A stretch of DNA of 64,000 nt from Hexactinellida sp. DTS-2022 (taxonomy: Eukaryota > Porifera > Hexactinellida). Location: positions 16,110,501-16,174,500 of the forward strand of contig JAPNXP010000001.1 in NCBI GenBank assembly GCA_028753945.1. Reading direction: 5' to 3'. The position numbers and the translations under genes were made by a program. The notes beneath the pieces are model-generated. The model saw nothing but the letters and a program-made list of their open reading frames with translations. It ran no database searches and was not told where the DNA came from. Positions 1-56,697 of the stretch are shown here, piece after piece (position 1 is the stretch's first letter; every line of letters begins with the position of its first letter).

Positions 1-2554
1 GAACATCTTTATGCCATACTTAACTACGCTATGAGACTTGTGTGATATGTTAGCCTCCACGTAATGTTTCATTGTAATAGCAACAGCTATCATGCTAATT
101 ATACCGGACAGCATAAACAGCTCAGCCAGGAGATACGCGAAATAAGCCATTATGAATATAAACATTGGCTCGAGCACACGTATGTGGTCAGTGAAGCGAG
201 TTATGAAACAGGTCAAATACCCGATCACAATTCCTATCAGCACACCGCCGATATTCACAATAAAGAACTTAAGGAAAGCGAAAGCTATATCGTACCACTG
301 AAACGCTACTTCGTCTCGGCCTATGACACAACCAGTAGAGTTCTCCAGGTCTACGCCCCCGAATTCGTGGCTCTCTAAGCCTCTGAGAGGCACGTTTGCG
401 AACTCTAGCAGGACATTGAACATGACCACCGTCACTGCGTCGTTAAATAGAGACTCTCCGAACACTAGGATGTGCAGGAGTTTGTTCACGTGGATCTACA
501 AAGGAATTGTATAATAAATTATTGGAAAGGCATTGGAGCCTGTAGGCAGGGTGACCTGAGAATTTGGGCCAAAACCTGGACATTTCTCAAAATTTCGACA
601 AAAATCCGGGACAATCCTGGATACAGGTTATAAAAAACTGGACACTATTAGTTTAATGTGAACGAATCGGAGACAATTGGATGATAATAAAAAATAATTG
701 CAAAAAACAACAACCTGGACAATTAGAAAATTACTAGACATCGCATAATAATTGTAAAAAAATTGGACAATGGTCACCCAACATGATGAAGGGGATTGAA
801 ATAGTGTCCCTATAAATCGGAATTTCGTATGAACTGTGTTCGTACTAACGAGTTTCTACTTAATGTTATAACGAGGTTCTATTTATTGTTATAACGAGGT
901 TCTACTTAATGTTATAACAGAGTTCTACTGATAAGAATGAATGACTCTACTCACCTCTTCAAACACGACCAATACAGCGACAGGATCAACAGCAGATATG
1001 AAAGTGCCGAACATAAGTGCATTTGGGATTGTGAGGCGAGAAGATACGACATACGTACCCATTATGGACACCTTAGAAAACCCGTATAAAACCATCCCGA
1101 GTCCAAACGCATTCCAAACAGTGTTAACAAGTGCTAGGAGGGCTATGGTGAGTGCGTTTTCGAAGAGAGCTCTGTTGTTCATGAAATAGCCGGCTTCTAG
1201 CACGATGGGAGGCAGGAGCACGAGGAAGAACAGCGTGGGCGTGAAGCTTATTTCTTTAATGTAATTGGGCCTGCCAGCTACGATACTGGATCCCAGGAAT
1301 ATATAACTATTGGAGTACAGTACGCATTATAATATCTATTTATATCCCAATGTTACAGTGTATTTGTTGCAGTTTATGGACGTGCATGGCACGAATTTCA
1401 ACAGCAACAGATTAACTAGTTGTCCCTTGAAATTATAACCAACTTTGAACTTTGATATAAAACAAATGCTGATGGAAAAATGTAATGTAACATTGATTCA
1501 TTTTTATTTTGTGTGGGTATACACTGCACAAAGATATACCATTAATCGAATATAGTATAGACTGTATACAGTAGATACCGGATATAAGAACATACTGGTT
1601 ATAAGAACATACCAGATATATGAACACTATATTGGAAAACGGTTTCCCTATACCCTGTGTAATTTATGCCGTTATAAGAACACTATATGCAGTTCCCGAC
1701 GATGTTCTTATATCCGGCATCCACTGTAGTACAAATTTGAGTATTTGCTAGCATCTTGTATTTACAATAAGATTTAAAATATACTACTGAATATACTTCA
1801 AAAACATCCCTGGTTGATTATAGATTTAGCGTATAATACGTACTGATGGATAGCGTATCACGTATACAGTAGAGCCTCTGAACAACGGACACCTTGGGAC
1901 CGGAACCGTTGTCCGTTATTTAGAGGTTGCTTTTCTATTAGACATATGCTAAATAAATAAATCCGTGCCACGAGGGTTGTCCGTTATTTAGAGGTTGTCC
2001 GCTATTTGGAGTGTCCGTTATGGGAGGCTCCACTGTAATACGTATTATACGAATTATACGCGTATAAATTGCGTATTTAATTAATCAACTTATAAATAAT
2101 AAATAAAACCTAAATTATAATTAAAACCCAGAAAAACCGAATACGCGATGATTACGTATGAAGTATAACATATAACAATGCACAAATCGTAAGATAAAAC
2201 CAACCCAAATATGATTCCAATGATGATAAGCATACAGGACTCTGGAAAGTTGCTTGTGAATTTCTCAAGTTTTGACAAGTGCCACACCAGTTTTGCCAAA
2301 ATAGCAATTAGTATGAATATTGTCACCAGAAAGTATATTTCGATATGATCAAAGTTGAGACCGATTGGGAGCAGTTTGAAGACTACTTCGCTACAGTTCT
2401 TAGGACAGGTGAGGTTAGAGTCGTTAGCAGAAGTTGGGAAGTAAGAACTGACTGAGCTGCCACCAGAGCCAGAGCCAGAGACGAAGTGATGCGCGAAGAA
2501 TATAGTGACTGCAATCCAAATAATGTAAATGTACATCCTGGATCCCCTCTTCAT
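1..2554 (-). CDS. Na+/H+ exchanger, SLC9A/NHE family (5' three exons; 3' end outside window)
   Basis: Electroneutral Na+/H+ antiporter of a plasma or endosomal membrane. Three exons read on the minus strand. Exon 1 (2554-2205) has a hydrophobic N-terminal segment, a Gly/Ser-rich loop, and the PESC motif that ends the second membrane helix in NHEs. Exon 2 (1306-955) holds the LLPPIVLDAGYFM-type motif (here [16 protein letters not shown]) and the AVDPVAVL motif. Exon 3 (495 to the left edge) holds [14 protein letters not shown] and, near the edge, [12 protein letters not shown]. Splice sites are GT-AG and phases agree: donor after 2205, acceptor before 1306, donor after 955, acceptor before 495. 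The start is placed at 2554 because MKRG directly precedes the signal-like helix; an in-frame ATG seven codons upstream is possible. It resembles the NHE1-5 type more than organellar NHE6-9 by motif wording, which is a judgement from memory. The cytoplasmic regulatory tail is not in the window. Confidence 0.93.
496..954 (-). other. intron 2 of the NHE gene
   Basis: Intron between exons 2 and 3 of the NHE gene. It contains short degenerate tandem motifs (GGACA... at about 580-770 and TTATAACGAGGTTCTA at 861-930). The second set resembles the ends of the TA-flanked MITEs found throughout the window. No coding signal seen. Confidence 0.6.
1569..1726. mobile_element. TA-flanked MITE (CAGTAGATACCGG ends)
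   Basis: Short inverted-repeat element in NHE intron 1. It starts CAGTAGATACCGGATATAAG and ends with the inverse (…CCGGCATCCACTG), flanked by TA on both sides. The CAGT ends and TA flanks are typical of pogo/Tigger-type Tc1-mariner MITEs. No coding capacity. A relative lies at 30825-30940. Confidence 0.7.
1867..2035. mobile_element. TA-flanked MITE (CAGTAGAGCCTC ends)
   Basis: Second MITE in NHE intron 1. Ends CAGTAGAGCCTCTGAACAAC and …GGGAGGCTCCACTG, with TA on both sides. Internally it carries several copies of a GTCCGTTATTTAGAGG motif in both orientations. Class inferred from ends and target only. Confidence 0.7.
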
Positions 2555-2578
2555 CGTCACAAACTCTATAAACATATA

Positions 2579-2740
2579 CAGTCAACTCCCGTTGTATCGT
2601 ACTATAAGTATAACTGTAATGACAGCCGATGTCCGGGAATTACAGTACATAATGGATATAGTGATAATTTGGATATAGTGATGATAATTTGGCCAAAAAT
2701 CACATGTCCCCACCATTATCACTATATCCATTATGTACTG
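2579..2740. mobile_element. TA-flanked MITE just upstream of the NHE start codon
   Basis: Starts CAGTCAACTCCCGTTGTATC and ends …CATTATGTACTG. The interior has inverted copies of a GGATATAGTGATAATTTGG motif. It lies about 25 bp upstream of the NHE start codon, so it probably forms part of that gene's 5' UTR or promoter (inference). Confidence 0.6.
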
Positions 2741-3534
2741 TAATTGGAAATTCAAGCAATTAATCATGGCTTTCATTGGCCTGTCATGCTTTAAATGACC
2801 CGAGATTAGTTATAGTCGCCACAACTTATCCGGGAACATTTATGATGGCCATCATCAGGGTTGCCAACTCTGACGCATTAGGCGTGAACATAACGCATTT
2901 TTTAAATCTCCCGGTTACATTCGAAATCTCACGCATTTTATAAAATGTAAAATTGTGCCATCAATTTTAGAAACAAATTTTTTTCTTATATTAAAATCAC
3001 AGAAAGTTGCCATACACAATGCAAATTAGGTCAATAGGAAGCATAGTTTAGCTTATAATCAAATTTATAAACTGGCCTTCTATTTTTTTGGCCTTGGTGA
3101 CATACACGGCCGTATTTTAAGTAGGCCATGGGTCCAGTCTATAGTGGCTAAACACAGCTAACGATTAATTTTATCTGAAGATGGAAGAAGTGTTGCGATC
3201 GAAAAAATAGATATATGTCACCGGTCAGAACCCTTATTTCTGAGTGTACATTAAGGCCCGACCGCAATTTTATTAAACAAATCCATAGTGTAACAACAAC
3301 AAGTAGAGTGTAACGAAGCTACTATAAGTAAAAAGAAATACAAATAAGTCAGGCTATTCCTAACTACGGATCTAAGCCTATAAGTTATTCTGAGCTAAGG
3401 TAAAAATACCAATGATACACATCATACACTAATAAATGGTAAGTCGTTACAATAGTAATGTTTTATTTAATTAGCCAATAAATATTCATTACTTATTTAG
3501 TTATACTATTACGACATAAATATACTTTGGTTTA
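2741..3534. other. intergenic DNA, nothing recognised
   Basis: AT-rich spacer. No gene, RNA or clean inverted-repeat element seen. A GGCCGTATTTTAAGTAGG stretch near 3108 and a GGCCTTGGTGACATACACGG stretch may be old repeat debris. Confidence 0.5.
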
Positions 3535-4925: not shown

Positions 4926-5395
4926 CATAGGCGGCGGAAGCACTGCGAGCACTGCGAGCATGCTCGCACCAATATTTTCCCAGAAAATTTGGGCCTAATT
5001 ATTTTTAAGGGCATCAACTGCATTTATAACATCAGTGATCAGAATATTCAGATATTCTATTTGGGTTTAATAGATACAGTAGACTCCGCTTAATAGAGCA
5101 ACTGGTTAATCGGATCAACCTGACTAATCGGGTCACTTGGCTAGAAACAGAAACATATAAATAGCGTTAAATTACTCCGGTTAATCGGGCCAACACCTTT
5201 ATTCCGCTTAATCGGCTCAAAATGGCCTGGTCCCGACTCCCGATGTGACCCTATTAAGCGGGGTAAACTGTAAATTCTGTAATTATGTACTATATTAATA
5301 GTCACTTAGTCAGCTATTATTTGGACCTATTTTTTGTTTTTTGGGCCTAAATGAGGAGTGCTCGCACCTACATCTAAATGCTTCCGCCGCCACTG
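4926..5395. mobile_element. hAT MITE with perfect 8-bp target duplication GTTCCGGG
   Basis: Ends CATAGGCGGCGGAAGCA (left) and …TGCTTCCGCCGCCACTG (right). The flanks at 4918-4925 and 5396-5403 are both GTTCCGGG, an exact 8-bp duplication as hAT elements make. GCGAGCACTGCGAGCATGCTCGC-type subterminal motifs are present on the left. A TA-flanked MITE (5077-5270) sits inside, so that one is younger. Confidence 0.85.
5077..5270. mobile_element. TA-flanked MITE (CAGTAGACTCCGCTTAATAG ends)
   Basis: Ends CAGTAGACTCCGCTTAATAG and …TATTAAGCGGGGTAAACTG, TA-flanked, inserted in the hAT MITE. Internal TTAATCGGGTCA motifs repeat. Same subfamily as 51435-51617. Confidence 0.75.
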
Positions 5396-5689
5396 GTTCC
5401 GGGGGACCATATACGGCGCCATAGATGGTCCGGCCGGACTAACCGTAAGGGGGGACCGTATATGGCATGACAATACACATTTGATTTTTTAATAAATTTC
5501 TTTATTAAAAAGATTTGGAAAAGTTTGGTTCGGATTATCGGGGTCTCATTTTATAGATGCCTATAGAAAATGTATTACTTCACTAATCCGAACGAATTCA
5601 CTAATCGAAACAGAAATCTTTTGAATCTGAACACCTTTGTTCGGATTAGCGAGGATGTACCGTAACAAGAATATGAAGTCATAAAAGTA

Positions 5690-5883
5690 CGTATTTGGGA
5701 ATAACTCTCAGTTTTTATCCGATTCGCCCACAATTTCGCTGGGAAGACAACAACATGAAATTAGACACACGTATACTGGGAACTAATTTGGATTCAGCTC
5801 TTACAATTTTGTAACAATATAAAATACGAGCACCTCGGTCTCGGTCTCTTCGCTACCTATGTTCGTTCGTGGTAGACACTACG
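5690..5883 (-). repeat. Helitron 3'-end remnant plus flank, repeated at 16866-17110
   Basis: The complement of this stretch matches 16866-17110 nearly throughout, including the Helitron-type 3' tail (GAAGAGACCGAGACCGAGGTGCTCG here). The shared sequence extends past the Helitron end, so an older larger repeat carries the Helitron relic. No coding signal. Confidence 0.6.
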
Positions 5884-6019
5884 CAGGGCCGTAGCCATCA
5901 AAATCAAAGTGGTCAGGTTAATTTGACCAACCTGACCGAGTGGTGCCATATTGGGAAATTAATCAACCAAAAGTGGTCAGGTTGAAACCTGACCAACCTG
6001 ACCAGTAAATACGGCCCTG
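5884..6019. mobile_element. MITE with CAGGGCCGTAG ends and 5-bp CTACG duplication
   Basis: Starts CAGGGCCGTAGCCATC, ends …TACGGCCCTG, and is flanked by CTACG on both sides (5 bp). The interior consists of inverted GTGGTCAGGTT / AACCTGACCAAC motifs. A 5-bp duplication with CAGGG-type ends would suit the hAT5 group (tentative). Degenerate relatives lie at about 8798-8935 and 13690-13755. Confidence 0.65.
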
Positions 6020-6197
6020 CTACGTAATACAAATAACGGCCGCTTCGCGGCCTTACCCACCGTGAGGTAGAAAACAGAATTGCAGAATAGAGAAATTTTT
6101 TATCTAGTTCAAATAGGAATGTATATGAACACTTATGCATATCTAAATTTCTAAACTTCTGCATATCTGTATGCTATTAATAAATCACTAATAGAAC

Positions 6198-6325
6198 TGT
6201 TTCGTAAAAATATGTCCAGTCGTAAAAATATGTCCAAGTATAAATATGGACAGTATTTTACAAAACCATGGATATGCTGTAAAAATATGTCCAGTTGTAA
6301 AAATATGTCCAATTTTTAAGTATAC
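6198..6325 (+). repeat. left TIR of the Ginger-like transposon
   Basis: 128-bp terminal inverted repeat. Four direct copies of a GTAAAAATATGTCCA motif and one inverted copy (TATGGACAGTATTTTAC) lie inside it, as expected for iterated transposase-binding sites (inference). Preceded by the GAAC duplication. Confidence 0.92.
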
Positions 6326-6386
6326 TAATACATGAATTTGTTTACTCAAATTCTATATTTATTTTGTCAATCTATTATTATGGAAC

Positions 6387-6909
6387 TGTTTTGACAAAAA
6401 GTGTCCGGCTACAAAAACTGTCCGGCCGGACAATTTTTGTCAAATTTAGCAAAAAACGTTGTTTTGACAAAAAGTGTCCGGTCGGACAGTTTTTGTCAAA
6501 CACTAAATACAATCCTGAATATCCGGATTTTTCGATTATCCGGGAACCCTTGGTTAATTTAATACAATGTGTTTATCCTAATTATCCCAACTTGTTTTGA
6601 GTAATCCCAAAGAGTTCGGATGATCAAGGTTATACTGTATTAGATTATTAGAGGAGTTAAAACAAAGTTAGATTCTCACTTGTCATTTTCTAGTATACGT
6701 ATTTACTGTATTATCACAGATTCTCTTTCTTGCGTAATATGCTGAAAAATATAAGAAAAATATTAAGTTTTTGTAGGCAAATTTTTTTTGTTAAATGTGA
6801 CAAAAACTGTCTGGCCGGACAGTTTTTGTAGCCGGACACTTTTTGTCACAACAACATTTTTTGCTAAATTTGACAAAAACTGTCCGGCCGGACACTTTTT
6901 GTCAAAACA
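6387..6909. mobile_element. non-autonomous Ginger-like MITE, TSD GAAC, nested in the larger element
   Basis: Ends TGTTTTGACAAAAAGTGTCC and the inverse …CTTTTTGTCAAAACA. The inverted arms are about 115 bp and contain CTGTCCGGCCGGACAG palindromes. Flanked by GAAC on both sides (6383-6386 and 6910-6913), the same 4-bp target as the host element. No coding capacity: the ORF-like stretches simply read through the repeats. It sits directly 5' of the first recognisable transposase exon and may have displaced or disrupted the native promoter or first exon. Confidence 0.85.
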
Positions 6910-30539: not shown

Positions 30540-33500
30540 ATGGTGACTCCATTGAAGATAACATTTCCTAAGACCCGGGACCACCTATGGGACAGCCTCA
30601 GTACAGGGGAGACCATGGATATATTCGCTATAAGCAGCAACAAACTCAGACTGCAGATACGAGTGTCTACACTGAAGCTAGCAGTGCAGCACTGTAGGGA
30701 GAGCGGAGCTAACAGGTTAGCAAACTTAGTATACTATAGCCGGGTATAGTGTTTGGAAAGTAGGAATTGTGCTCATTACAAGGATATGATACCTATGCTA
30801 TTCCTATACTATTACAGTGGATGCCGGTTATAAGCACATCGTCGGGAACTGCACTTAATGTGCTTATAACCGATATAAATTATATAGGGTATATGGCAAC
30901 CGTTTTTCCAACATAGTGTGCTTATATCCGACATCTACTATACCTATGCTATTCCTGCAGCTGCTTCCTGCTGGGGAGTGCCCAGTGCTCGGAGGAGGAG
31001 CTGGTGCTCTCTGTGGACAGATTCGACCCCGGAGTCCCCACTCACTCCTTGGACCTAGGCCCCACCGACGTGCTAGAGGGAGACATCCCTGTCAGGACTA
31101 GGTACGTACTGTACTGTACTGTATTAACTAACTACAGTAGAATTTCATTAGTACGAATTTCCGGTTAATACACGAATACTATTGCTATTCAATCCCCTTC
31201 AAAGCCTTTTCAATAGAAATGGTTTAGATTATTACAAATGCCGGGTAAGGCGAATGCATTTTGACGGTCTCCTGGCGTTCCTATTAACGAGGTTCTACTG
31301 TAGTTAGAAAAAACGATTAGTTAGAAAAGTCCGGTGTTAATACAATCGGTTTCGAGTTCATAATAAGATCTCCCCTATCCCTGTAGCATCTGTACAGAGA
31401 GGGAGTGGCAGGAGAGAGCGCCCTACTCGGAGAGAGAGCTGGAGGAGGCTATAGAGACCCTGTCGCTGCTGGTGTCTCAGAACCAGCAGGTGTCTCTGGA
31501 CATGTTCCTGACGCTCTCTCTCTGCATCCTCCCGCTGTCCGCTCCCGGCCTATTCAGACTGCGCGCCGCCTCTCTGCTCTCAGGCGCACATCTGCTGCTG
31601 CACTCAGTGCCGCCTGTGCCAGTGCTGCCCACTGCTCTCGCTAGGAACCTCACAGGTAGGCACACTCGTGTTCAAATGTTATGGAAGTTAATACCGTAGA
31701 CACTTAGTTAAATAAAATTATGATTCCTATTCCCATCACATAGCCATATGGGTACGAGTATGAGAATTCCCATACCCACGACAATCCAGTAATAACTAAT
31801 TTCCACTAGAAAATATGCCCACTGCTCTGGCTAGGAACAGGCGTGCGTAATTTTGAAAGGAAAAATTTCTAGGCTAGCAAAAATCTACAGATGCCACATA
31901 GACATAATACAAATTGAGTATTTTAGCCGCGTGTGAGCGAGCTCAAACTAAATCTAGGCGCGCAGAATATTCGGGACTACAGTGCTGTTCATGTCTTAAG
32001 ATTATGTAGTAAACCTAACTAATCCGACGCTCGTTGGGTCAGGAAAAATGTGTCGGATTAAGTAGAATTTCTGATATACATACGTAGAGTGAAATTTCCA
32101 TTATACGACGCTCATTGGAATATAAAATTTGTGTCGGAATAAAGGCGAATTCCGGTTTATAGGGTCGGATTACCTGTCTCTACTGTAATACTATATTTCC
32201 TACTGTGCATGTGGTGTGGAACTCGGTCACTTCAGGAAGGAAATAAGTACGTACTAACCGAGTTTATCCCACATAGAAATACAGTGGTGTTGGCGTAATA
32301 GCAAGTCGCATTTTGCACAAAATTTGCTTGCTAATAGGCGAATTAACATTAGATACTCGTTTTGGGACTGGACCTGAATTGCCCCACCTCAGGTGGGAAA
32401 TTAATGTTAGTATGCCCACCAGTGGCGCCGAGCTAGCGCCGTCACTGTACATCAATATTGTTATTAGCCAAACACCACTTTATAGCGTAGTGCCACCTTG
32501 TAAATTCGCCAAACTACGTAATGTACATTTACGTATAGGGTATAACTTGCTATAACGGCCACTCAATACTTACTCACTTACTAGCTATTTGTTGTGTATA
32601 TATTTATATGTATATGAATATCTCCATCGAGTGAGTTGCATTTCACACAAAAGGATTTAATTTGAGTTCACTCACTAGCATTTTGTAAAAGTGCTAGCCC
32701 ACATTTTGTATAAGTCTATGTGAATATCTCTAGATTTTCGATTCTAAAAACCTTGATTATAAACCCAATGTTTACTGTAATTACGCTATCCTCTGCTATA
32801 AGTTATCTCTCCGTAGGCCCCAGTCCTATCTACGAGGTGCAGCAGCGCACCCGCAGCGGCTACCTAACCATGGATGAGTCCCGTCGCCTGCTGCTGCTGC
32901 TGGACTCAGACCCCAAGGCTCCCACCTTCCCTATAGTCGGTGTGTGGGTGGGCGGGGCCTCCTCGGCTCAGCACCCGGCTGTGTGGAGCTCCTGCATGCA
33001 GTACTGCTGCACAGAGCTGCTGGGAGACAGGGCGGCCCCGCCCGCCACAGGGTTCCTCTTGCTGCTATACCCCGGGGGCACAGCTGGGCCTCTGTTCTTC
33101 CATTGCTGCTGTCAGCAGTCAGAGCTCCTGTACTCATTCCTCACAGCAGACACCAGTGTGTATCCCTCGCAGGAGGACACTGTAGTGTGCGACCTCGTGT
33201 CCTCCTCCCAACCAGTGTCCCCAGACTCTCTCAGACTCCTCTGTTCCCAACAGAATCCTCTCTCCTCCCAGCATAACCCGGTCCCCTACCCGGCCCCGCT
33301 CTCCCTCAGCAGGGAGGACAGCCTCCTCAACCTGTCCCTCATAGAGTCAGTAGCCAGTCGCACAGACCGCTTCTCTTTCTGCCAGCAGGTCACATCCTCC
33401 ATGCTGCTCCCGGGCCCCGCCCCGCCCCCCGTGCTCCCCCTCAGCCCCCTACGGGCCCCCGCCCCCGTCCTGACAGCCGAGCGGACAGCGGAGCTGCTCA

Positions 33501-36802: not shown

Positions 36803-39800
36803 CTAATCATCAGGTTTGAAATTCAACCACAAATCATGCTCAATACCATACTCATCGGCTACTGCTGTTAGCTCCTTGATGGATTCTTGTTCTGGAACCC
36901 AGAGTCCACTCAACCTGAGGTTCTCCAGTTTAGATACAGTAGGTATGAGGTGTATTAGAGGGAGACAAGATAAGGAGGTCATACTACAGCTATCTAAATC
37001 TAACTTCCTAAAAACAGGATGCTTGATCAGTCCTTCACACAGGGAGAAAAATCCTGTGTCATAGATGTAAATATAATAGAATTTCAATTCAACTAATGAC
37101 TTGAGTTCTCTGATTGTATTACTCCATTAGGTGATGCCGTCAGTTGGTAGCAAAGTGCTTACCAGCTCTAGTTTAACTATGCTAGTACAGAATGCCAAAC
37201 AATTGAGAAATATTTTCCAATCCTTGAACCCTAGACCATCTAAACTAAATAACTTCAGTCCTCTTAATGTGATTCTGTTTCCATTCATTACTTGTCTCAA
37301 ATGATTAGAGACAGTTTCGTCTGATGTTATAACATCACCTATCACAAGATAAGTGATGTTGGTTAACTTCCGTATTGCAGGTAGCAGTGCATAGTGACTG
37401 AATTCAATTTCTTGTAACTTAGAAAATTGCGGTAACACAAATCTGAGAGGTTGAGTGATTGTAGCCGAAATGGCATAAAGGTATAATCCTTTTAGTTGTG
37501 TCAATCCACATAAAGCTGATATAAGAGTGTTGAAATCAATTCCACTTCGTTCAAAATTCTTACTTTTGAAACTAATTTCATTTCTAGATGCTGCTATATA
37601 CAAGTATTCAAGAGCTGAGAAATGGTTGGTTAATTGCCGCTGGGATTCATTAGAGTAATTGAATAGTCGGAATAGTTGCATGCTCGAAAGATTCTTTGGT
37701 TTGAGGAATGGATTGTCAGCCGTCACCCCGGTTAGATCACACCTGAATATCTCTAGACTAATTCTAGTATCTGATAATTGTTCAGTTTCTCTAATCAGAT
37801 CACAGTAAGGTAGGTCTGTAATTAAATCTTTATCGTAGATTTTAATGGCTAGGCATTTTACTGAACAAATTCCCAAACATTGTAACAGAGACTTGAATTG
37901 ATCTAGGTTGATGAATTTTGTGTTGATAGATAATAATTGTATTTTAGAAACAAGTTTGAGAGATTGTAGAAAACAGATCCATTCGTTTGGAGAAATTGCT
38001 TTGAGTATGAATAAATAAATTGGATCAGGGAAAAATTGTTTGAAGTGTGCAATCCAAACTGGAATAGAACTTGAATCTGTCTCATAGAGAATAGCGGTCA
38101 TTTGGAGGTAATTGTCAGTGAACTCATTCCATCCTTCATTATGTGTATCTAGGTCATCATATCTCAGTTGATAGCACATTGGTATATCATTCAATTGGAT
38201 CGGTTGAGGAGTTAGGTATCTGTATAGGATCGATAGCACAGCTGCTGACTTGTCACATATGAGACCGCAAAGAAACCTAACTATCATTCTGAAAAGGGCG
38301 AAATTAGCGATGGAGTGGGAGATATAGCGAATGCTGTAACACTGTCGAGTCCAGGTTGAGGAATATAGCCATAGGGCAGCAGTGAATTCCTGCATTGTAA
38401 GATGAGGAAAAGTCCACACTTTCTTTATCAGTCCAACTGACTCCCTTTTATAATGTTCATGAGCCAAACCCAAGCAGTGACCTGTGTATACATTTTCCTT
38501 GATACTAAGAGGGACATTTTCTTCAGATACTAGATCCCTGTTGGCCACTCCCAGGAACGCGATGACTGCTATTCTATACAGACACTTGAGTATATCTGCG
38601 TGGAAGGAAGAGATTTCTGCGACTCTACTAAACTCTTCTAGACTCATTCTTATGAGTTCCCTCCTAATGAGGTATAGGGTTAATTCGTGGTATAACTTTG
38701 TCAGTGTATTGATGTCGGTAGACTCCTTTTCTTTCAATAGAGTTGCAAAAAGAGATGCGTTTACTGGAATTAGAGATAATTGATTTATTTCGTCATATCT
38801 GGCTAGTAGGTTCATACATTCTCTCAGTTTTGTATCGTCATGTAACTGTTTGGTAAAATACAAGTCCCTATTTTCCGGCGAAAACCCCAATACTTGATAA
38901 TGGCGATCTATTTTGAGTTCGTGAGTTGATGAGATATCGGTCCAAAATCCAGGTCTACTTGTTAGAATAATTGAAGCTCGGATAAGAATTTGTCGTGTTA
39001 GTAATAAGAATAAAAGTGTTTTCTCAAATGTAACCTTTTTCGTGTATTCATCTAATCCGTCTATAATTAGTAACATTCCTTCCCCTTCTGATTCAGACAG
39101 ATGTTTGGCAAGTTCTTTGGACCAGTTTCCTCCTTTTGGCAATCCCAGACACAGCCACTTGCTGGTGAACTCATTATCAAATTCTCCTTCAGTTTCATAA
39201 CGAGTAGTCTCCATTGAATGCCAGTCAGGGTTTCGACAGGGAATTGATATTGAATAGCGGATACCAGATAGTTCACTGCAGCTGAACCTCAGAGCTGTCC
39301 TCCTAGCGAGAAATGTCTTCCCACAGCCTGGGTTTCCAATCAAACACCAAATTTCAGGTTGTGTAGGATTGTACGAGGTTATTTCCTTTGTAAAGTCTAC
39401 TGGCTTTATCTTGACTTCTTTATTAGCTATCTTTCGTAAGGTTTCTATCTCATTATAAGTAGTTTCATCGTCAAGGTTAATTGGTTGAGGTTTCTGTTTC
39501 AAAATGGTCAGGTCAATATATACATATGCTAGATTCACTGTTTCGTCACTGCCTATCATTTGTTTAACTTTCTCATGTTGGGTTTTTGAAAACTGTTTCA
39601 GTTTATTTTCCCATTGTTTCATTTCTTTTGCTTGGGTACCAACTTCTCTACTGAATTTGATCTCAAATTCTCCTTCTTCCATTGATGAGAATATAGATTG
39701 GTATGCTCTCAATTTATTTAAAAGATCAATTCTGTTTATTCCTTTTAGGACATCTGAAAATATTTTCAGGTCTCGATCAATAAATCCCTTCTCCAACATC

Positions 39801-40207
39801 TTGTTCAGTGTTATTTCAAATCCAATATTTTCTCTTGATTCACCTGCTACTGCCATGTATATAAGTATCCAGTTACTCTTTGTAATCTCATTTTTCAGTA
39901 GATCGATTAGGGATTTAATAGTTAGCTCTTCTATTTCTTCCACATAGCCTGCAGAATGTGAGGAACAGAGCCACGGTATTTTACAAGCTGTTTCTATCAG
40001 GTCGGGCCGAGTATCATTTAGTGCTTTGTAGAACGTGACTGGATTGTGTTTATCCCACTGTCTCAAGTCTGATAGGAAGAGAGGTACATCTGACACATTT
40101 TGGCATACCACCTGTGGTGCTCTTATCAAGGTCTGTATCTTCCTAATATCATCTCTTGTTAGCTTGTCGGATAGTTCAACTGTAGCTGCTAGTTCAACTA
40201 TATTCAT
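36803..40207 (-). CDS. NLR-type receptor: death-fold/DED – NACHT – LRR, with one in-frame stop in the LRR region
   Basis: Cytosolic pattern-recognition-type STAND ATPase. Start at 40207. Residues about 5-80 look like a death-fold domain and 92-175 like a death-effector domain (LKIFSDVLKGINRIDLLNKL). NACHT follows with Walker A GNPGCGKT (291-298), Walker B GMLLIIDGLDE (near 373-385) and a sensor-like ILTSRPGFW. The C-terminal half is leucine-rich-repeat-like. A TAA at 37129-37127 ends the 1,026-residue frame. The same frame stays open for 107 more codons to 36803 and continues in LRR style (RELKSLVELKFY … VFRKLDLDSC … LENLRLSGLWV). The stop therefore looks like a recent nonsense change, a null allele or a base error rather than the natural end. 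Single exon, AT-rich. Sponge NLRs commonly pair a death-fold domain with NACHT-LRR (family knowledge). Confidence 0.85.
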
Positions 40208-44710: not shown

Positions 44711-44812
44711 TATTATAATCAATGATACTTGGTACCTTTATAACGGTATCTCAATGTATTTATGAATGGATGGCTTATTAACCTCTCCACTCTTATTCTA
44801 ACAGTACTTATT

Positions 44813-47800
44813 ATGGCTGCCAGGGATCTTGTCGTCTCACAGCGTGCTAGAGATCAACACGAACCTCACTTTGACTCTACAATGAGTCTCCCTAGATCTC
44901 TCCACGAGGCATACAAGCTACACCTCTCTACTATGAAGCATCCAGCTGTCAACATGTTCAGCTGCAGTCTTCAGGCTCATCGCTCTTGTAACGAAGCTAT
45001 TATATTCCTGTACGGGGTGAGTGGTGCTGGTAAGTCTGCCACTCTTAACCATCTCTTCGATACTGAGTTAATCCCGACCTCTGCTACAGAGTCATCCACA
45101 GACTCTGTGATTGAGTGGGTGAGTAGTATGCATAGCAAGCATTGGAATGTGTCAAACTTAGAAGTAGGGTTCATAGATGTTCCTGGGTGGGGAGATTCTG
45201 AGGGGAGAGACGCGACTAACTTTGCACTCATGCAGCAGTTTATGTCTGTACACCCAGTGTTAGGTTGCAAGGTAAGGAAGTTCTATCCAAATATTGTATT
45301 GATCGTCTTCAACACGAATGACAATAGAATGTTGGGAACTGAGGCCAGTGCTATGAAGATGTTGAACACATTGTCAAAGTTAGGTATAGTGGACAAGAAG
45401 AGACCGAATGTAGTTATTGTACTAACTCATGTGTGTTCTCATTCTCCTTCTGAGTTTTCAGATATATTATTTGTTCAGTGTGAGATATATCAAAGCATAG
45501 CGCGATCTACTCTGGGAGTTAACCCACCAGTTGTGTGGATCGAAAATAATCCCTCTTACAAGTTAAAAAGGTGCGGAGATTGGACTCTGTTGTATGATGG
45601 GACAGTTCAACCTCTGAACCTGTACGAGGCTATGAGAGAACTAATGGTGAGGGCAGGAGATGAGTTAGGCAAGGAGGCAATACGCCTCTATTTTGAGAAA
45701 CGTAGCTCTAACCCTCCAAAGGAGAGACTCATTGTTAATGCTAAGTTATGCGATAAGAAGATTCTCTCTAGCAGAGAGCGAGAATGGCTTGATACAATGA
45801 AGAGGAAATTACCTACTTTCAAGAGCACTCCTTTAAATTCATACCTACTTGACTACATAAACTCACACCCAGATCTAGCTATACAACAATATCAGGTAAC
45901 TGGTCTACTAGTCGCATTATCTTCTTGTTTTACTAATAAATCTGAAATACAAACAAAGTGTATTGAATATATCGTGTCCAAACTTCAACCTTTTTTAATG
46001 AGTGTTCAAGATAAACGCCTGTTAATCAAGGCCCTAGATTTGAATGTCCCCGAATTACCAGATTGTATCATGGCTGTAGGAAGAGGATATAATATGAGTA
46101 ATGGAACCATAACAGATGGTCTGCTAGTTGAGATTAGTCACTCGAATTCATTCTGCTCCTTCTTGAATCGCCCTCTCCCCAATTCGTTTTCCCTTTTACC
46201 GTTTGAAGGGAATAGAATCACTTTTGGTTCTTTTAATACTCAGCATCGTGATATTAAACAAATAGATCCACATCGGATGAAATCTCAATTTACTTCTGCT
46301 ACATATTTCTGTAGCAAACTAATATCAACAGCAATAGCTAAGATTATTCAGCAACTTGATGATATGAATGTGAATTTTGATGAAGGCAAGCTAAATTTCT
46401 GGGTTGAAGCAGGTATATTCAACGTTCAATTGAACTTGCCATATCTAACTCTTTCCAAAGGATTCTGTGATGCAATTGAATCTCTCCCTGAAAACTCATT
46501 TAACGAGTATGGGCAAGTCAATTCTGAATATACTGATTTTATCAACCAATTACCAATATGGACATTATATCATTATAAAAGCTAATGGAGGAGGAATAAT
46601 TGAAGGATGTATCAATATGGCTTATCATTCCGAGAAAGAACTTGTGGGTATAGTCTTGCCTTGTCTTGAGACTATATTTGATCTGATTAAAGATGGAACT
46701 AACTGGAAAGATGTTAAAGATCAGTTACCTGATAATCAAATACCAATTTTGAGTGAATTAGATTCTACTTGCATACAGTGGTTGGGCGGAGATCAAGCAT
46801 TCACTTCAAAATCAATTAAAGATATACATCCTGACATGTATTTAAAGTGGCTTAACTCTCTCAAACAATTTTCCATCCTGTTTGACTATTCTTTCAGTTT
46901 AATTCCTATTCACCTGTTATTTGCTAACAAATATCCTAACATTTCTGAGTCTTTGAAACAAGCTATAAATTCTCTACTACCAGATAGTGAGAGTAATCTA
47001 TTCCATGGCAATATACCACATAACTTGGATGCTTTAGGTAGTAAAATTGAAAAGTTAGTATTACCTTGCTTTCCAGCTGTAGAGTCGAGTGTTCGTCTGG
47101 CTCCTAAAGCTCTTTCACGGTTGAAAGCAAGAACGAATACGCAAGTGGAATTAAAAGAAACTGAGCATACCAAAGCACTAGTTACCAATAATGGTTCTCC
47201 TATAAAGCCTTCAAGAAAAATTGTAACGGAAGAGGATAAAACTGATATCAATAATGTCGGGAGAAGCTGTTTTAGTTCCGATTCGAAAGTAGTGCTAGAG
47301 AACGGGGAGTGTATTAACATCAGTGACGTAGTGATTGGGGACTCTATCCTCTCTCTAGACAGCAGAACCAATAAACCTGTATATTCCAAGGTGTACATGT
47401 GGGCTCATAGAGATCTAGATACAACTGCTTCCTTCGTGGAGATACATCATGAATACGGTACACTCAAGCTATCTGACAACCATCTACTGCTACAGGGACA
47501 CGAGAGACGAGTGACGACCGCTTCTCGGATAAAGACTGGAGACATTGTTCATTTCTTACAGTCTGTAGATGTACCTGTCTCCAGCTACTGTCTAGTTGCT
47601 AGTAGGGTTACACGTGTGTGTCACTGTGTGCAGAAGGGATTGTGCTGTCCTTTCACTGTTAACAGTAGGATTGTTGTGAATGGATTGGTGTGTAGTGTGT
47701 TTGTTGTGCCAAATAGCTCTGTTGATCAGTTTGCTAGATTCGAGAAGTTAACCAGATTTGCGATGAGTCCATTAATTCTGGCTAACCGGTTAGGTTGTGG

Positions 47801-47879
47801 GAATAGAAGTGGGTTGAATTGTAAGATACACCCCTACTTACAGTTACTGCTAGATTGTTATTACTCTCTTCCGAAGTGA
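44813..47879 (+). CDS. AIG1/GIMAP-like GTPase – middle domain – Hedgehog-type Hint fusion, interrupted by one frameshift
   Basis: First frame 44813-46585. P-loop GVSGAGKS (residues 68-75), G3 DVPGWGD (D122) and G4-like LTHV give an AIG1/TRAFAC-type GTPase. Then comes a helical region and a segment (AVGRGYNMSNG … DFINQLP) faintly like MACPF/SNTX-type proteins. Near 46555-46585 the frame shifts by one base; homology continues in the other frame (IIIKANGGGIIEGCI…) to 47879. The C-terminus is a Hint domain: GRSCFSSDSKVVLENG with the nucleophile Cys at 47268-47270, LSDNHLLL with the block-B His at 47481-47483, and VVNGLVCSVF with a Hedgehog-like late Cys (47691-47693). Hint domains self-cleave and may attach a lipid. 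The start at 44813 (MAARDL) is preferred over an upstream in-frame ATG at 44762. The frameshift means a pseudogene or a sequence error; both parts otherwise look constrained. The middle-domain call is weak. Confidence 0.75.
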
Positions 47880-51994: not shown

Positions 51995-54900
51995 CTAAAA
52001 AAAGTAGACTGGTCCTTGCAAATGATTTGTATCTTCAGTACACTGTTGATATTTTTGTGAAAAGAGGCAAACCTTTCTCCTAACCTCCATCATTATGTAG
52101 GTGAACTCCAAATTATTACAGGATTGCATCACACTACAAAACGATTGGATAAAGAATGTTCCAATGGAAGTATCTCGATAAGAGGCATACTGATTAATAG
52201 TTGAATCAGCAATGTATGTATCAATGGGTGAACAGAGTGCCGATTCAAATATAGGTTTATTATGCCTAGTTACATTTTGAAAATTTCCGGTATTAAAGCC
52301 ATCTGTTGAAGGGGGGTTATCCAAATAGTCAACAAATAGGTTTTTATCAAGATTTGACTTAATTTTCTTCAATTCGACTTTTTGTGATTCTTTCCCCCTA
52401 CAGACTTGGAATAGAAATATTCTAGGTTTTGATGCAAGTCCTTTACAATACTTAGGTGAAAACTCAGATACTATTTTAGCTTTTGAAAGTGGGGCTTCAT
52501 CCGAAAAAACAACTTCCTCATTTTCATTTCCATGAGCCATTATTACACAAAAGTAGGAGTCATATTGGGAATGGTCGAGATCCCGAATAGCTCTTTGTGT
52601 TCTGATGTATTCCAAACGAGTTAAGTCCTCGTATACTCTACTTTCATATTGTAAGAAATCAAAAACACGTCTCAATGCATCAATATCTAGTTTTGAACCA
52701 AGTCTATCCTCATAATTTCCTCTATAGCATTCTATGTTAACAATGAACGCTATCCCATGTCTGTTCTTATTCATGGGATAGAAAAAATTCATTGCGTTCC
52801 TTTCAGGGTTGTCAGTTTTTATTACATTTTTTCGGTATGAATTAATGTTTTGATCAAGAAAGCTTCGTAAATATCGATGACCAGGTTCGTTTGAGGTATT
52901 ACACAATGCAAAATAGAATTTGATTGCCCACTGAGGGCCTTTGTGTATCATTTCCATTAAAAACATTTCCGACTTACTTGCATTTAGAATATCTTCTATT
53001 AGTATTATGGCTATTCTCTGCATATTAAATAGTCCAAGTGAATACAAATAGTTCGACAGTATTCTCCAGTTCAAATGGGGTACAAATTCATGACGGTGAT
53101 TAATAATAAAAGCACCTAGCTCAGTGTTGACATAGGATTTACAAATATGATGGAAGAAGGCATCTTCACTAAGAATAAATTTCATACATTCTGTAAATTG
53201 ATTTGTGCAGCAAAATTTGGATGAAGAGATCTCATCGCCATTCAAAGTTACTTGATTTCTTTGTTTCAACTTTGAAACTTCACTTTCATCAATTGACAGA
53301 ATTGTGTCTAGGCAACATTGAGGTTTTATTCCCATTTCTAATAACTCTAGAGTTTTACAAGAATTACATACAAACGATATTTTTGCTAGATTACCACATG
53401 GAATTAGGGTACTCTGAATCTCGACGAGGAAAAGTTGCAAAAATATTAAATAATTGATTACTTCTGAAATGATATATTCCTCTTGAAAAATAGAGGAATC
53501 TATTGTGAAGAAATTTACCAAAATTAAGGAATTATTTGGGATACAATCTATTGAAACAATCAAAGATTTACAAACGTAGAAAATCGCACAATCAAAACCC
53601 AAAAGAGACTTTGGTAGCCTCTTGCCCTTATTTCTGTTCAAACATTTCGCTAGAAGAGTGAAATAAAGAGAAACGGGTAGAAATCGATCAGGAAAGTAGA
53701 TTAAATGTTCAGAAAATACTTTATGAAATGAAACCTTTTTTCTGAGATTAACTAGAGAACCACTTAGTAGATATGGAACATAAAAACAGGAAAATCCAGT
53801 TTCCAATTCACATTTAATTATAATCCCATAGATTTGCAAAAGATCTAAAAGTGGTTCTCTCAGATTAGATAAATTAAGATAATCTAGTAAATACTCAAAC
53901 AGTCTGAATGAAAGTCTACCTTCATCTGTGGATGTTTTAATATCATCTTTAAACACTGTATCACTTTTTTCAACCATTTGAGGAAAAAGTATGTAATAAA
54001 TGAGAGACAGAAATTTTTTTATATTAACGATAATATTATCTTGTTTAAAGAAGAAGAATCCAATATCGTTGAAGAAGTGCAAGAAGTATTGTAATTCATC
54101 TGTACACTTCGAGTATTCAGCTAAATACTGAATACGAGATCGATCAAGAATTGGCTTGTCATCCCTCAGAATATCATTTGCAAGTTTTAACCACTTGATC
54201 GGGATAGGCTCTTCGAATGCAACTTCATCAGACACTCGCTTAATTGCAGATTTCAGTTTTAGAATATTTTGATAATAAGGAGAATCAGTTTTACAGCTAA
54301 TTATAAAAATTCCATCATCTTCATGAACTAGACTGAATGAATTATTCCTGGCTGACATATGAGATTTGAGAAATGTATAATATTTATTTGCTATTTCTTC
54401 AGGTTTTTCTACTTCATCTGCTTTACTGAATACAATTATAATCTTTGTAGCGGTGTAGTGCTTATAACTATCGGTTAATTGGGTTTTACTGATTGAGTAT
54501 ATAGCATTAAACCAAAATTCAAATACTTCCAAATAGGTTGTAGGAACACCTGACTTTGATCTTTGGTCATATCTATCTTCCCTGTGACGAGGTTCAATAT
54601 TATTTTTCAAATCTTTTATTGATAGATCCACTAAAAGTAAATAGACAGATCTCGGAGATAGAAAAAGAGAATGAAAACAGTAAAGATAGTTTTGTCCTGC
54701 AAAATCCCATGCAGTGAAGAAGTCAGATTTACATCTGAGAGATTGAATTCTATCTAATGTTGAACTAATTTTCTCAAATTTATTTACTTCAATCTGATGA
54801 TCACTTGTACCTTGGTCCGAAGATTTTTCTATGAGTGTATTACCAGTTGTTGTATTTTGTCGTATAATATCTGAATTATCAGAATCTGTTGGTTGTGAGG

Positions 54901-56596
54901 GAAAAGTTTGGGCAAGAGCGATATCAACATTAATCGACTGAGTATTTGCTGAATATTCTGAATGAAATATCATCTGTGCGACCAGTTTAATGGCTAAATC
55001 TTGCCTTGTTTCTTCTAGATTACGAATATATGTATCTAAATCTTCAATGTTAGCCCAATCGTGTGAGAACTTTTGAATTTGTACATCATATTTTTCCAGA
55101 AGTTTAGTGCTCTTTTCTTCTTCCTGATAACACAAGCCAGTAAGAACACGTAAAAGTGAGGTTTTTCCCACACCTTCAGGGCCCACAACCATTAAACGAA
55201 AGAATTTGAAAGATTCTGTACCTTCATTACACGCCTTCTCGTAATGTGATTTGAATTCGTCATCCTCTTTGTTCAATAGCTGTGCCAGATGGCCGTGATA
55301 GTTGATATAGAAATTCTTTCTTAATCCATCCACAATTTGTATAGAAAATGACTGAGTGGTATGAATTATTGCACTTCTTAAGAGCGAATGCAATTCAGAG
55401 AAATAATTTCTCTTAATTTCCGAAGCAAAATTGTTTATTAGTGAATTTTTAGATAAGAAAGGCTCGATCGAATGAACAATAAGCATGTGTTCTTTTTCTT
55501 CACTTGACGATATATTTTGAGTCTCAAATAAATGGCTTAAATATATAACTTTAGGTAAATTGGCGAATGTTGTTGATATTTCTCTTAAAAATATATCCAC
55601 ATCAATTTCATTTCTATCTTCAAACATAACTTTGTGAGATGTACTACGGTTTAAAACTATGATGAATACAAATCTACAACCCTTACAGAGAGTTGCATTT
55701 TTTGTAAGCAAATTTGAATAGCTTTGTTCATTCATTAATATCACATCTTCTCCAATCATATAGTTAATAGATTCAAACATTTTCTTAAGTTTTTCCATCA
55801 ATAATTGTGTGTTAGTCCAATTACTTTCCATAAAAGTACTACTATAAATAAAGAAGAAAAAACCGAGAGATTTTCTCACTGAATCAGTTTTCGATAGAGA
55901 TTCAGTGTATTTAACCAATAACGGGTATCTCAATGTATTTTTTGAATAAAACCTTGTATCAATATTGTAACTGTTCTTATCGTGTGCAGGAAAGTAGTTG
56001 AAATAATCATCCCTAATTTCAGTAAAGAATTCGGTTAACAAAAGATGTTCTTCTTTAGAATTTTCGAGGACTTTAAATATTGAGTATACAATTTGGTGAG
56101 AGTTTGCTTCTTTTGGTAAAGATCTTGTGGAACTAGATGCATAGCAGAAAAATGTATTAAAACAGATATTTATATCTTTAGTTAAAATAGCGTTGTTAGG
56201 TGAGATGTAACTACACAATACGATGGCTGGGACTGCATAGGAACGCTGAGATAAACGATGATAAATCAGTGCACTTATATCTTTTTGGGATATATAGTTA
56301 GCGCTCTCATTAGGGCTACCAATATAATAGCTTAGTGTTCCATCAGAGTATTTTACGGGTACTATCTCTCCAATGATAAAAGCTATGAGACAGGTACAAG
56401 GTTCGGTCCACATCATCTGAATAACCTCATCCAATTTTGCATAAAAATATTCCATAGGATTTACTGTATCATTTGTTGTACGAATGAATGAAATAATAAA
56501 TCCAAAATTTGACAAACATTTTGCAATTTGTTGACAAATCGTATTTGCTTGACTTGTAGTATTTTTAGAAGCGTTGAAAAGTATAAATAACCCCAA
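51995..56596 (-). CDS. caspase-like – caspase-like – ROC-COR GTPase – caspase protein (1,533 aa, single exon)
   Basis: Predicted cytosolic STAND/Roco-type signalling protein with a protease effector. Residues 1-195 and about 240-345 resemble caspase folds, but the HG position is lost (LIAFIIGE; VFIIVLNRS), so they are probably inactive. ROC GTPase: P-loop GPEGVGKT (472-479, K478), G3 WDFAGQ (630-635), G4 FSKADE (near 722). A COR-like region follows (IPIKWLKLANDIL; FFNDIGFFFF…NIVNIKKFLSLIYYILFP). Caspase domain at about 1275-1533: HGIAFIVN, catalytic-type H1355 in MAHGNE, C1399 in FQVCRG (the QACRG motif), and a p10-like SYRDTSIGTFFIQSF. Length and frame are intact with no stop. The start at 56596 is the first Met before the caspase-like fold; the 56670 ATG in another frame is not used. 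It may transduce GTP- or ligand-driven oligomerisation into caspase activation (inference). AT-rich like the NLR. Confidence 0.88.
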   Translation of the reverse strand: MGLFILFNASKNTTSQANTICQQIAKCLSNFGFIISFIRTTNDTVNPMEYFYAKLDEVIQMMWTEPCTCLIAFIIGEIVPVKYSDGTLSYYIGSPNESANYISQKDISALIYHRLSQRSYAVPAIVLCSYISPNNAILTKDINICFNTFFCYASSSTRSLPKEANSHQIVYSIFKVLENSKEEHLLLTEFFTEIRDDYFNYFPAHDKNSYNIDTRFYSKNTLRYPLLVKYTESLSKTDSVRKSLGFFFFIYSSTFMESNWTNTQLLMEKLKKMFESINYMIGEDVILMNEQSYSNLLTKNATLCKGCRFVFIIVLNRSTSHKVMFEDRNEIDVDIFLREISTTFANLPKVIYLSHLFETQNISSSEEKEHMLIVHSIEPFLSKNSLINNFASEIKRNYFSELHSLLRSAIIHTTQSFSIQIVDGLRKNFYINYHGHLAQLLNKEDDEFKSHYEKACNEGTESFKFFRLMVVGPEGVGKTSLLRVLTGLCYQEEEKSTKLLEKYDVQIQKFSHDWANIEDLDTYIRNLEETRQDLAIKLVAQMIFHSEYSANTQSINVDIALAQTFPSQPTDSDNSDIIRQNTTTGNTLIEKSSDQGTSDHQIEVNKFEKISSTLDRIQSLRCKSDFFTAWDFAGQNYLYCFHSLFLSPRSVYLLLVDLSIKDLKNNIEPRHREDRYDQRSKSGVPTTYLEVFEFWFNAIYSISKTQLTDSYKHYTATKIIIVFSKADEVEKPEEIANKYYTFLKSHMSARNNSFSLVHEDDGIFIISCKTDSPYYQNILKLKSAIKRVSDEVAFEEPIPIKWLKLANDILRDDKPILDRSRIQYLAEYSKCTDELQYFLHFFNDIGFFFFKQDNIIVNIKKFLSLIYYILFPQMVEKSDTVFKDDIKTSTDEGRLSFRLFEYLLDYLNLSNLREPLLDLLQIYGIIIKCELETGFSCFYVPYLLSGSLVNLRKKVSFHKVFSEHLIYFPDRFLPVSLYFTLLAKCLNRNKGKRLPKSLLGFDCAIFYVCKSLIVSIDCIPNNSLILVNFFTIDSSIFQEEYIISEVINYLIFLQLFLVEIQSTLIPCGNLAKISFVCNSCKTLELLEMGIKPQCCLDTILSIDESEVSKLKQRNQVTLNGDEISSSKFCCTNQFTECMKFILSEDAFFHHICKSYVNTELGAFIINHRHEFVPHLNWRILSNYLYSLGLFNMQRIAIILIEDILNASKSEMFLMEMIHKGPQWAIKFYFALCNTSNEPGHRYLRSFLDQNINSYRKNVIKTDNPERNAMNFFYPMNKNRHGIAFIVNIECYRGNYEDRLGSKLDIDALRRVFDFLQYESRVYEDLTRLEYIRTQRAIRDLDHSQYDSYFCVIMAHGNENEEVVFSDEAPLSKAKIVSEFSPKYCKGLASKPRIFLFQVCRGKESQKVELKKIKSNLDKNLFVDYLDNPPSTDGFNTGNFQNVTRHNKPIFESALCSPIDTYIADSTINQYASYRDTSIGTFFIQSFCSVMQSCNNLEFTYIMMEVRRKVCLFSQKYQQCTEDTNHLQGPVYFF

Positions 56597-56697
56597 ACCT
56601 TTAGAATTGTTCTTCTGATTATAAACACTCTTAAACTTTTCATGATTGATTTGAATATAGTTCTTTTCATCCCTATTTCGAGATATTATTGAAATTA

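Follow-up and report, generated by a model that had tools for sequence, protein, structure and literature searches.

Do a caspase and a Roco-type GTPase that share one open frame in the genome of a glass sponge (Hexactinellida sp. DTS-2022) belong to one protein, and if so, what might that protein do? The frame lies in a stretch of 64,000 nucleotides, here called the window (contig JAPNXP010000001.1, positions 16,110,501 to 16,174,500), which we analyzed together with paralogues from the same genome and relatives from sequence databases.

The large exon and its 5′ edge

Positions 51995-56596 of the window, on the minus strand, hold a frame of 1,533 aa that begins with a TTG codon, so the frame reported in an earlier note on this DNA is present, and the paralogues have long related frames. 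From stop to stop it spans 1571 codons in DNA of ~32% GC, which is far beyond chance. The assembly comprises 112 Mb in 18 contigs, and its genes contain introns. No ATG was found in frame upstream of residue 48 of the 1,533-aa protein. Upstream of the TTG, 38 more codons are open and free of ATG, ending at a stop within a transposon-like element. Two features mark this edge:

56672..56674, minus strand: likely 3′ splice acceptor AG/G, the 5′ edge of the large exon, with position and phase as in the paralogues L012 and L013
56693..56889, no strand assigned: MITE-like element with 31-nt inverted ends in the presumed upstream intron, adjoining the presumed acceptor

Acceptor-like sites are clear in L012 and L013 (TTTCTTTAACAG/G and TTCTTCAACAG/G), and the AG/G of the window is identical to them in place and phase. 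Because this position is common to the three genes and no in-frame ATG precedes residue 48, we infer that the large exon is real and that at least one further 5′ exon is required. The earlier description of the gene as lying in one exon was therefore right about the large exon but probably incomplete. Sequences resembling the ends of the MITE-like element also occur at positions 839-861 and 31278-31300 of the window.

The same 5′ edge would also be expected of a decaying gene that has lost its start and whose frame is open only since the decay is recent: there is no upstream ATG, the transposon-like insert lies ~20 bases from the presumed acceptor, and four related copies are broken (see below). 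However, the conserved acceptor accounts for the absent ATG, L013 likewise lacks a local ATG, and the 1571-codon frame has stayed intact even though dS between the window gene and L012 is near saturation. We regard decay of the window copy as very unlikely.

Domains of the predicted protein

The frame divides into the following features:

55895..56596, minus strand: pseudo-caspase domain 1 (N1, residues 1-234), without catalytic His or Cys; caspase-like by profile and predicted fold
55277..55885, minus strand: pseudo-caspase domain 2 (N2, residues 238-440), without catalytic Cys; from hhalign profile comparison
54197..55234, minus strand: Roc GTPase domain (residues 455-800), with a poorly ordered insert at ~550-625; from Pfam Roc, hhalign and a PDB profile match
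53267..54196, minus strand: COR domain (residues 801-1110); from hhalign against metazoan Roco proteins
52886..53128, minus strand: CARD-like six-helix bundle (residues 1157-1237); from a sub-threshold Pfam CARD match and AF2 helices
51995..52795, minus strand: caspase domain (residues 1268-1533) and stop codon; from Pfam Peptidase_C14
52532..52534, minus strand: catalytic histidine H1355
52400..52402, minus strand: catalytic cysteine C1399

As this order is seen by Pfam, by profile comparison and in AF2 models, an architecture of two pseudo-caspases, Roc, COR, a CARD-like region and a caspase in one chain is well supported. The domains listed earlier were borne out, but their borders had been drawn too short (domain 1 runs to ~234, not 195, domain 2 to ~440, not 345, and Roc-COR to ~1110, not 870), and the CARD-like domain between COR and caspase had been missed.

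Pfam Peptidase_C14 matches residues 1281-1527 with an E-value of 4.9e-34, and the nearest solved sequences to the protein are those of caspase-3 (best E 1.8e-25). The catalytic pair claimed from the first reading, H1355 and C1399, is invariant in 30 of 30 aligned proteins, as are positions 1298 and 1397 of the Asp-binding pocket; position 1474 is conserved in 28 of the 30, with the other two rows gapped, and P0036 lacks the stretch that holds this third pocket residue. We take positions 1298, 1397 and 1474 to be the equivalents of caspase-3 R64, Q161 and R207, the Arg/Gln/Arg pocket for the P1 Asp. Besides an invariant D1459, the intersubunit linker holds another Asp in 29 of 30 proteins, the exception (P0023) being cut short there. 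QACRG is the sequence in nearly all aligned relatives but QVCRG in the window copy, a difference that, like the missing start exon, counts against the mechanism proposed below. Judged by its sequence, the terminal caspase is apparently competent.

The GTPase domain is matched by Pfam Roc with an E-value of 1.1e-9 (39 bits against a cut-off of 27), and the three motifs attributed to it are all present: G1 is GPEGVGKTS (472-480), G3 is WDFAGQ (630-635), and G4 is a G4-like FSKAD (723-727) with S for the usual N or T. Whereas the P-loop K/T and the G3 Asp are conserved in all 30 aligned proteins, the first residue of G4 is S in 22, T in six and N in two. That the window carries SKAD, and not NKxD or TKxD, counts against reading the domain as a GTP switch. 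Against a profile of 24 non-caspase metazoan Roco proteins, Roc plus COR gave 100% in hhalign. A PDB search using the Roc-COR profile of four paralogues returned the LRRK2 Roc (E 1.4e-9) and entry 3dpu (E 1.7e-9), where the best stretches cover only ~35 residues around G3. Entry 3dpu is labelled 'Rab family protein' in the PDB listing, and we take it to be the Chlorobium Roc-COR.

COR directly follows Roc, and by itself gave 97.1-97.9% against metazoan Roco proteins in hhalign, with controls at or below 0.4%, which confirms the COR-like region proposed at first sight. With E-values of at most 0.1 allowed, five of 30 relatives gave a Pfam COR-A match (best E 3.9e-5); in the paralogues L010 and L013 the match stayed below the cut-off, and none was listed in the Pfam scan of the window protein. 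Between COR and caspase, Pfam CARD falls below the cut-off in the window protein (residues 1164-1237, E 0.013) and exceeds it at the corresponding place in the paralogue L009 (E 1.9e-7); seven of 30 relatives match it within the same E limit of 0.1. When residues 440-1533 were modelled by AF2 (mean pLDDT 72.5, pTM 0.67), six helices appeared at ~1157-1233, coinciding with the Pfam CARD region. Searches with this model by Foldseek and VIA-align listed caspases only.

The two degenerate caspase folds described earlier are both caspase-like by profile. In hhalign, N2 gave 97.1% over 191 columns against the caspase of its own chain and 95.5% against other caspase frames. Roc, COR and linker slices compared with caspase profiles gave at most 0.5%, and wishful alignment was rejected on this ground. 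A fold search on the predicted structure, which reached domain 1 only, found a full-length caspase fold there; AF2 modelled residues 1-465 with low confidence (mean pLDDT 63, pTM 0.43). Structure prediction of residues 1-345, the check first suggested, thus upheld the first domain, while the second is identified by profile comparison. In the 30-protein alignment, no row that covers the catalytic Cys column of N1 or N2 has a Cys in it; a Cys stands next to that column of N1 in P0001, P0007 and P0008, and in N2 of P0018 a His lies close to the His column.

Paralogues, relatives and divergence

Loci drawn from the caspase-domain matches in the genome gave ten genes in total, which is a lower bound. 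At least six are intact long frames with the order Roc-COR-CARD-like-caspase: the window gene (1533 aa), L009 (1744 aa, with NACHT in front), L010 (1859 aa), L011 (1704 aa), L012 (1559 aa) and L013 (1548 aa). At least four others are broken, namely L014 (two frames, part of Roc gone), L019 (an in-frame stop, caspase split over two frames), and L024 and L032, which are pieces only. Copies have been both gained and lost within this genome, in subtype A. The frame of L009 (G000:C14:4728000-4735500) contains NACHT, a weak LRR match, Roc-COR, CARD and caspase; downstream of it, short stretches repeat part of its N-terminal sequence (residues 510-544) and of its caspase end. The caspase-domain matches also included a 905-aa frame with immunoglobulin domains and a caspase domain (L015, G000:C13:4962000-4968500, 115-2829, minus strand), a frame with a caspase domain followed by an NHL repeat (L018, G000:C2:2146500-2153000, 4978-6501, plus strand), and eight matches clustered within 14 kb (L033 and L034, G000:C6:322813-336041).

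Database relatives were drawn from listings of 48, 70 and 10 proteins, in which PF00656 and PF08477 occur together in 37 distinct clusters. A chance frame or a misassembly is ruled out by the same order being kept in paralogues and database relatives, and accidental read-through into a separate caspase gene, also rejected, would hardly account for 37 clusters with Roc and caspase in one protein. Three of the 37 bear an organism name, in each case Oopsacas minuta, whose fusion proteins are filed as Caspase-3, caspase-3 or Caspase-3-like. The others are 32 'ena' clusters and two 'lgn' clusters; the latter lie on 5.7 kb contigs barely longer than the coding part and would fit transcripts. NACHT is carried by eight of the 37, as well as by L009. 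Further family rows hold caspase only (three) or Roc only (four), perhaps as cut gene models. The search for the same domain order that had been proposed thus led to one cluster group only, the named members of which are from Oopsacas minuta. PF00656 was listed for none of 43 more distant rows from molluscs, echinoderms, Sycon, a slime mould and others. This absence outside the family is provisional, since the search reaches only relatives that share exact words and in one listing the best 7995 candidates were scored. The fusion is likely restricted to glass sponges.

The three Oopsacas proteins share 71%, 69% and 61% identity with L009, L010 and L011, respectively; one database cluster reaches 90% with L009. 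Each of subtypes B, C and D has one close relative found here and one in Oopsacas, 61-71% identical. Such one-to-one pairs are as expected for conserved functions and would suit an ordinary enzyme of developmental or housekeeping apoptosis, with Roc-COR merely a scaffold; however, subtype A gains and loses copies, and the best database relatives of the window protein are 46-51% identical, which makes a housekeeping role quite unlikely in our estimate. Since one conserved subtype has NACHT and LRR-like sequence instead of pseudo-caspases, the family appears to be a constant Roc-COR-CARD-like-caspase chassis with exchangeable front ends.

In a tree of the caspase domains (45 rows), subtype A (17 rows) was grouped with support 100/99, as were B (6 rows) and the NACHT type (3 rows), and C (8 rows) with support 100/98; all other rows drew long-branch warnings. 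The tree places the caspases of L025, L027 and L028 inside the set of fused ones and P0036 outside it, on long branches, and therefore does not prove a single origin of the fusion.

Between L012 and L013, dN/dS was 0.32 for the caspase, 0.35 for COR, 0.49 for Roc, 0.71 for N1, 0.90 for the CARD-like linker and 1.59 for N2. By Fisher tests on this pair, N2 differs from the caspase (p 0.0026), COR (p 0.0015) and Roc (p 0.019), and N1 and N2 pooled differ from Roc, COR and caspase (p 0.0007), a result from one gene pair and several comparisons, uncorrected. In the same pair, dN/dS of N2 is not significantly above the neutral value of 1 (p 0.26), and N1, taken by itself, shows no difference from the caspase (p 0.09) or COR (p 0.12); relaxed constraint could therefore suffice to explain the divergence of the pseudo-caspases. 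Mean identities by subtype (A, B and C; 11, 5 and 7 rows out of 30) were:

N1: 43, 48 and 56%
N2: 45, 59 and 59%
CARD-like region: 43, 73 and 75%
COR: 51, 67 and 84%
Caspase: 59, 72 and 77%
Roc: 61-64, 77-79 and 82-88%

In all three subtypes Roc, COR and the caspase are better conserved than the pseudo-caspases, and in subtype A conservation of the CARD-like region is as low as that of the pseudo-caspases.

These rates bear on what the pseudo-caspases do. If they are an internal, cFLIP-like partner, one of them would pair with the C-terminal caspase and set its activity, making the protein mainly a self-regulated enzyme and not a pathogen receptor. The full-length caspase fold of N1, the 191-column match of N2, the absence of Cys from both catalytic Cys columns in covering rows, and the alignment of the tandem pair across subtypes A, B and C are consistent with this, yet contact with the caspase predicts constraint where three subtypes show lower conservation, the divergence of N2 between L012 and L013 exceeds that of the caspase, and the NACHT subtype manages without pseudo-caspases. 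We consider an internal partner possible, though not the outcome we expect. In plant NLRs, integrated domains act as decoys or sensors. By analogy, the dead caspases could mimic the target of pathogen caspase inhibitors, so that their engagement would trigger the real caspase. The same slot holds NACHT in another subtype, the pseudo-caspases diverge fast, and subtype A copies are gained and lost, all in keeping with a decoy; against it, no pathogen ligand is known and dN/dS does not significantly exceed 1 in the single paralogue pair, and we find this reading doubtful. Overall, the fast divergence leans toward bait or relaxed constraint, and the tandem fold toward a partner.

A candidate mechanism and its known counterparts

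We hypothesize, with somewhat better than even confidence, that this glass-sponge protein is an initiator caspase switched by GTP within a single chain, and that it would act as an immune or death receptor whose pseudo-caspases serve as regulator or bait. Proximity activates initiator caspases, the dimer state of Roco proteins follows their nucleotide, and CARDs assemble platforms. It is by combining these behaviors that we infer GTP gating, dimerization, self-cleavage and an immune role. In the chassis, Roc would be the switch, COR the dimerizing part, the CARD-like bundle a death-fold contact and the caspase the protease. The exchangeable front end points to sensing, and the N-terminal part would read the signal, with two pseudo-caspases here and NACHT plus LRR-like sequence in another subtype. 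A signal would alter the nucleotide state of Roc and the Roc-COR dimer, which would bring two caspase domains together and turn on Asp-specific cleavage. The first cut would fall within the Asp-containing p20/p10 linker, and cleavage would then extend to substrates that take part in local death or immune signalling. The tandem pseudo-caspases would most likely hold or partner the caspase, or act as bait for pathogen factors. The Roc of other families need not gate its attached effector. Taken as a whole, we regard the mechanism as plausible.

LRRK2 and DAPK1, both Roco proteins, have links to cell death. The sponge protein resembles them in its Roc-COR tandem, where the profile match to the LRRK2 Roc extends over ~35 residues, but it has no kinase, its effector is a caspase, and pseudo-caspases or NACHT stand in front. 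Among its nearest Roc-COR relatives outside the family are invertebrate death-fold/CARD Roc-COR proteins (P0054, P0058 and Sycon P0068), which, unlike the sponge fusion, are not listed with PF00656. In the Apaf-1/caspase-9 apoptosome and in CED-4/CED-3, a nucleotide switch, a CARD and an initiator caspase act together, whereas the sponge parts, a CARD-like bundle among them, are in one chain and the switch would be a Roco GTPase and not an AP-ATPase. cFLIP and other pseudo-caspases are caspase folds without catalytic residues that work beside an active caspase. The sponge protein differs in that a tandem pair of such folds belongs to the enzyme's own chain, and because a tandem DED is absent from its Pfam scan (none at E up to 1), we do not file it as a cFLIP. 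Subtype D resembles the NLRs (NACHT-LRR) in its NACHT and weak LRR matches in front; here, though, the effector caspase sits in the same chain behind Roc-COR, and in the window protein NACHT and LRR are absent from the Pfam scan.

The claim that this architecture is undescribed held within the literature searches made, in which the fusion was found in no paper. The available portion of a Roco review sorts the family into LRR-only, kinase and DAPK1 groups, and describes DAPK1 as coupling a death domain with Roc-COR; 'caspase' occurs nowhere in its main text (PMC6337361). A term search of the main text of the Oopsacas and Aphrocallistes genome papers returned neither 'caspase' nor 'Roco'. In the part available to us, a Dysidea avara paper states that Aphrocallistes has no bona fide NLRs, and because CASc and COR stand in the key of its NLR figure, a related architecture may exist in demosponges (PMC12909245). 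Excerpts from other sources discuss bacterial caspase and AP-GTPase systems (eLife: PMC8195603, PMC7159879) and report Roco domains joined to TIR proteins in the sea-hare immunome (PMC9334734); 'Roc' is absent from the text available of a survey of animal NLRs and caspase-1 (PMC11508797).

More broadly, and with considerable doubt, we speculate that glass sponges have a class of single-chain death receptors, each with an exchangeable sensor (tandem pseudo-caspase bait or NACHT-LRR), a Roco switch, a CARD and a caspase, that would take the place of the ordinary NLRs reported as lacking in Aphrocallistes. If so, one molecule would do the work of multi-part inflammasomes or apoptosomes, a single-chain alternative in an early animal lineage with syncytial tissue, as described for glass sponges (PMC5684314). 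Tethering the protease to its sensor would allow death in a syncytial animal to stay local instead of taking the whole cell. The control of effectors by Roc-COR is debated, and a natural caspase fusion would offer a direct and easily assayed readout of Roc-COR switching. It also provides an example of tandem pseudo-caspases that share their chain with an apparently live caspase.

Two further loci of the window deserve mention. A 1026-aa NLR-like frame at 37127-40207 on the minus strand, 12 kb from the fusion gene, has NACHT (E 2.8e-16), NLRC4_HD2 below the cut-off (E 1.9e-4) and a weak DED match. On the plus strand at 44762-47879, an AIG1/septin-like GTPase frame (607 aa, below cut-offs) overlaps a frame with a Hint module (E 1.8e-24), and the two may be parts of a single GTPase-Hint gene that an intron or a frameshift connects.
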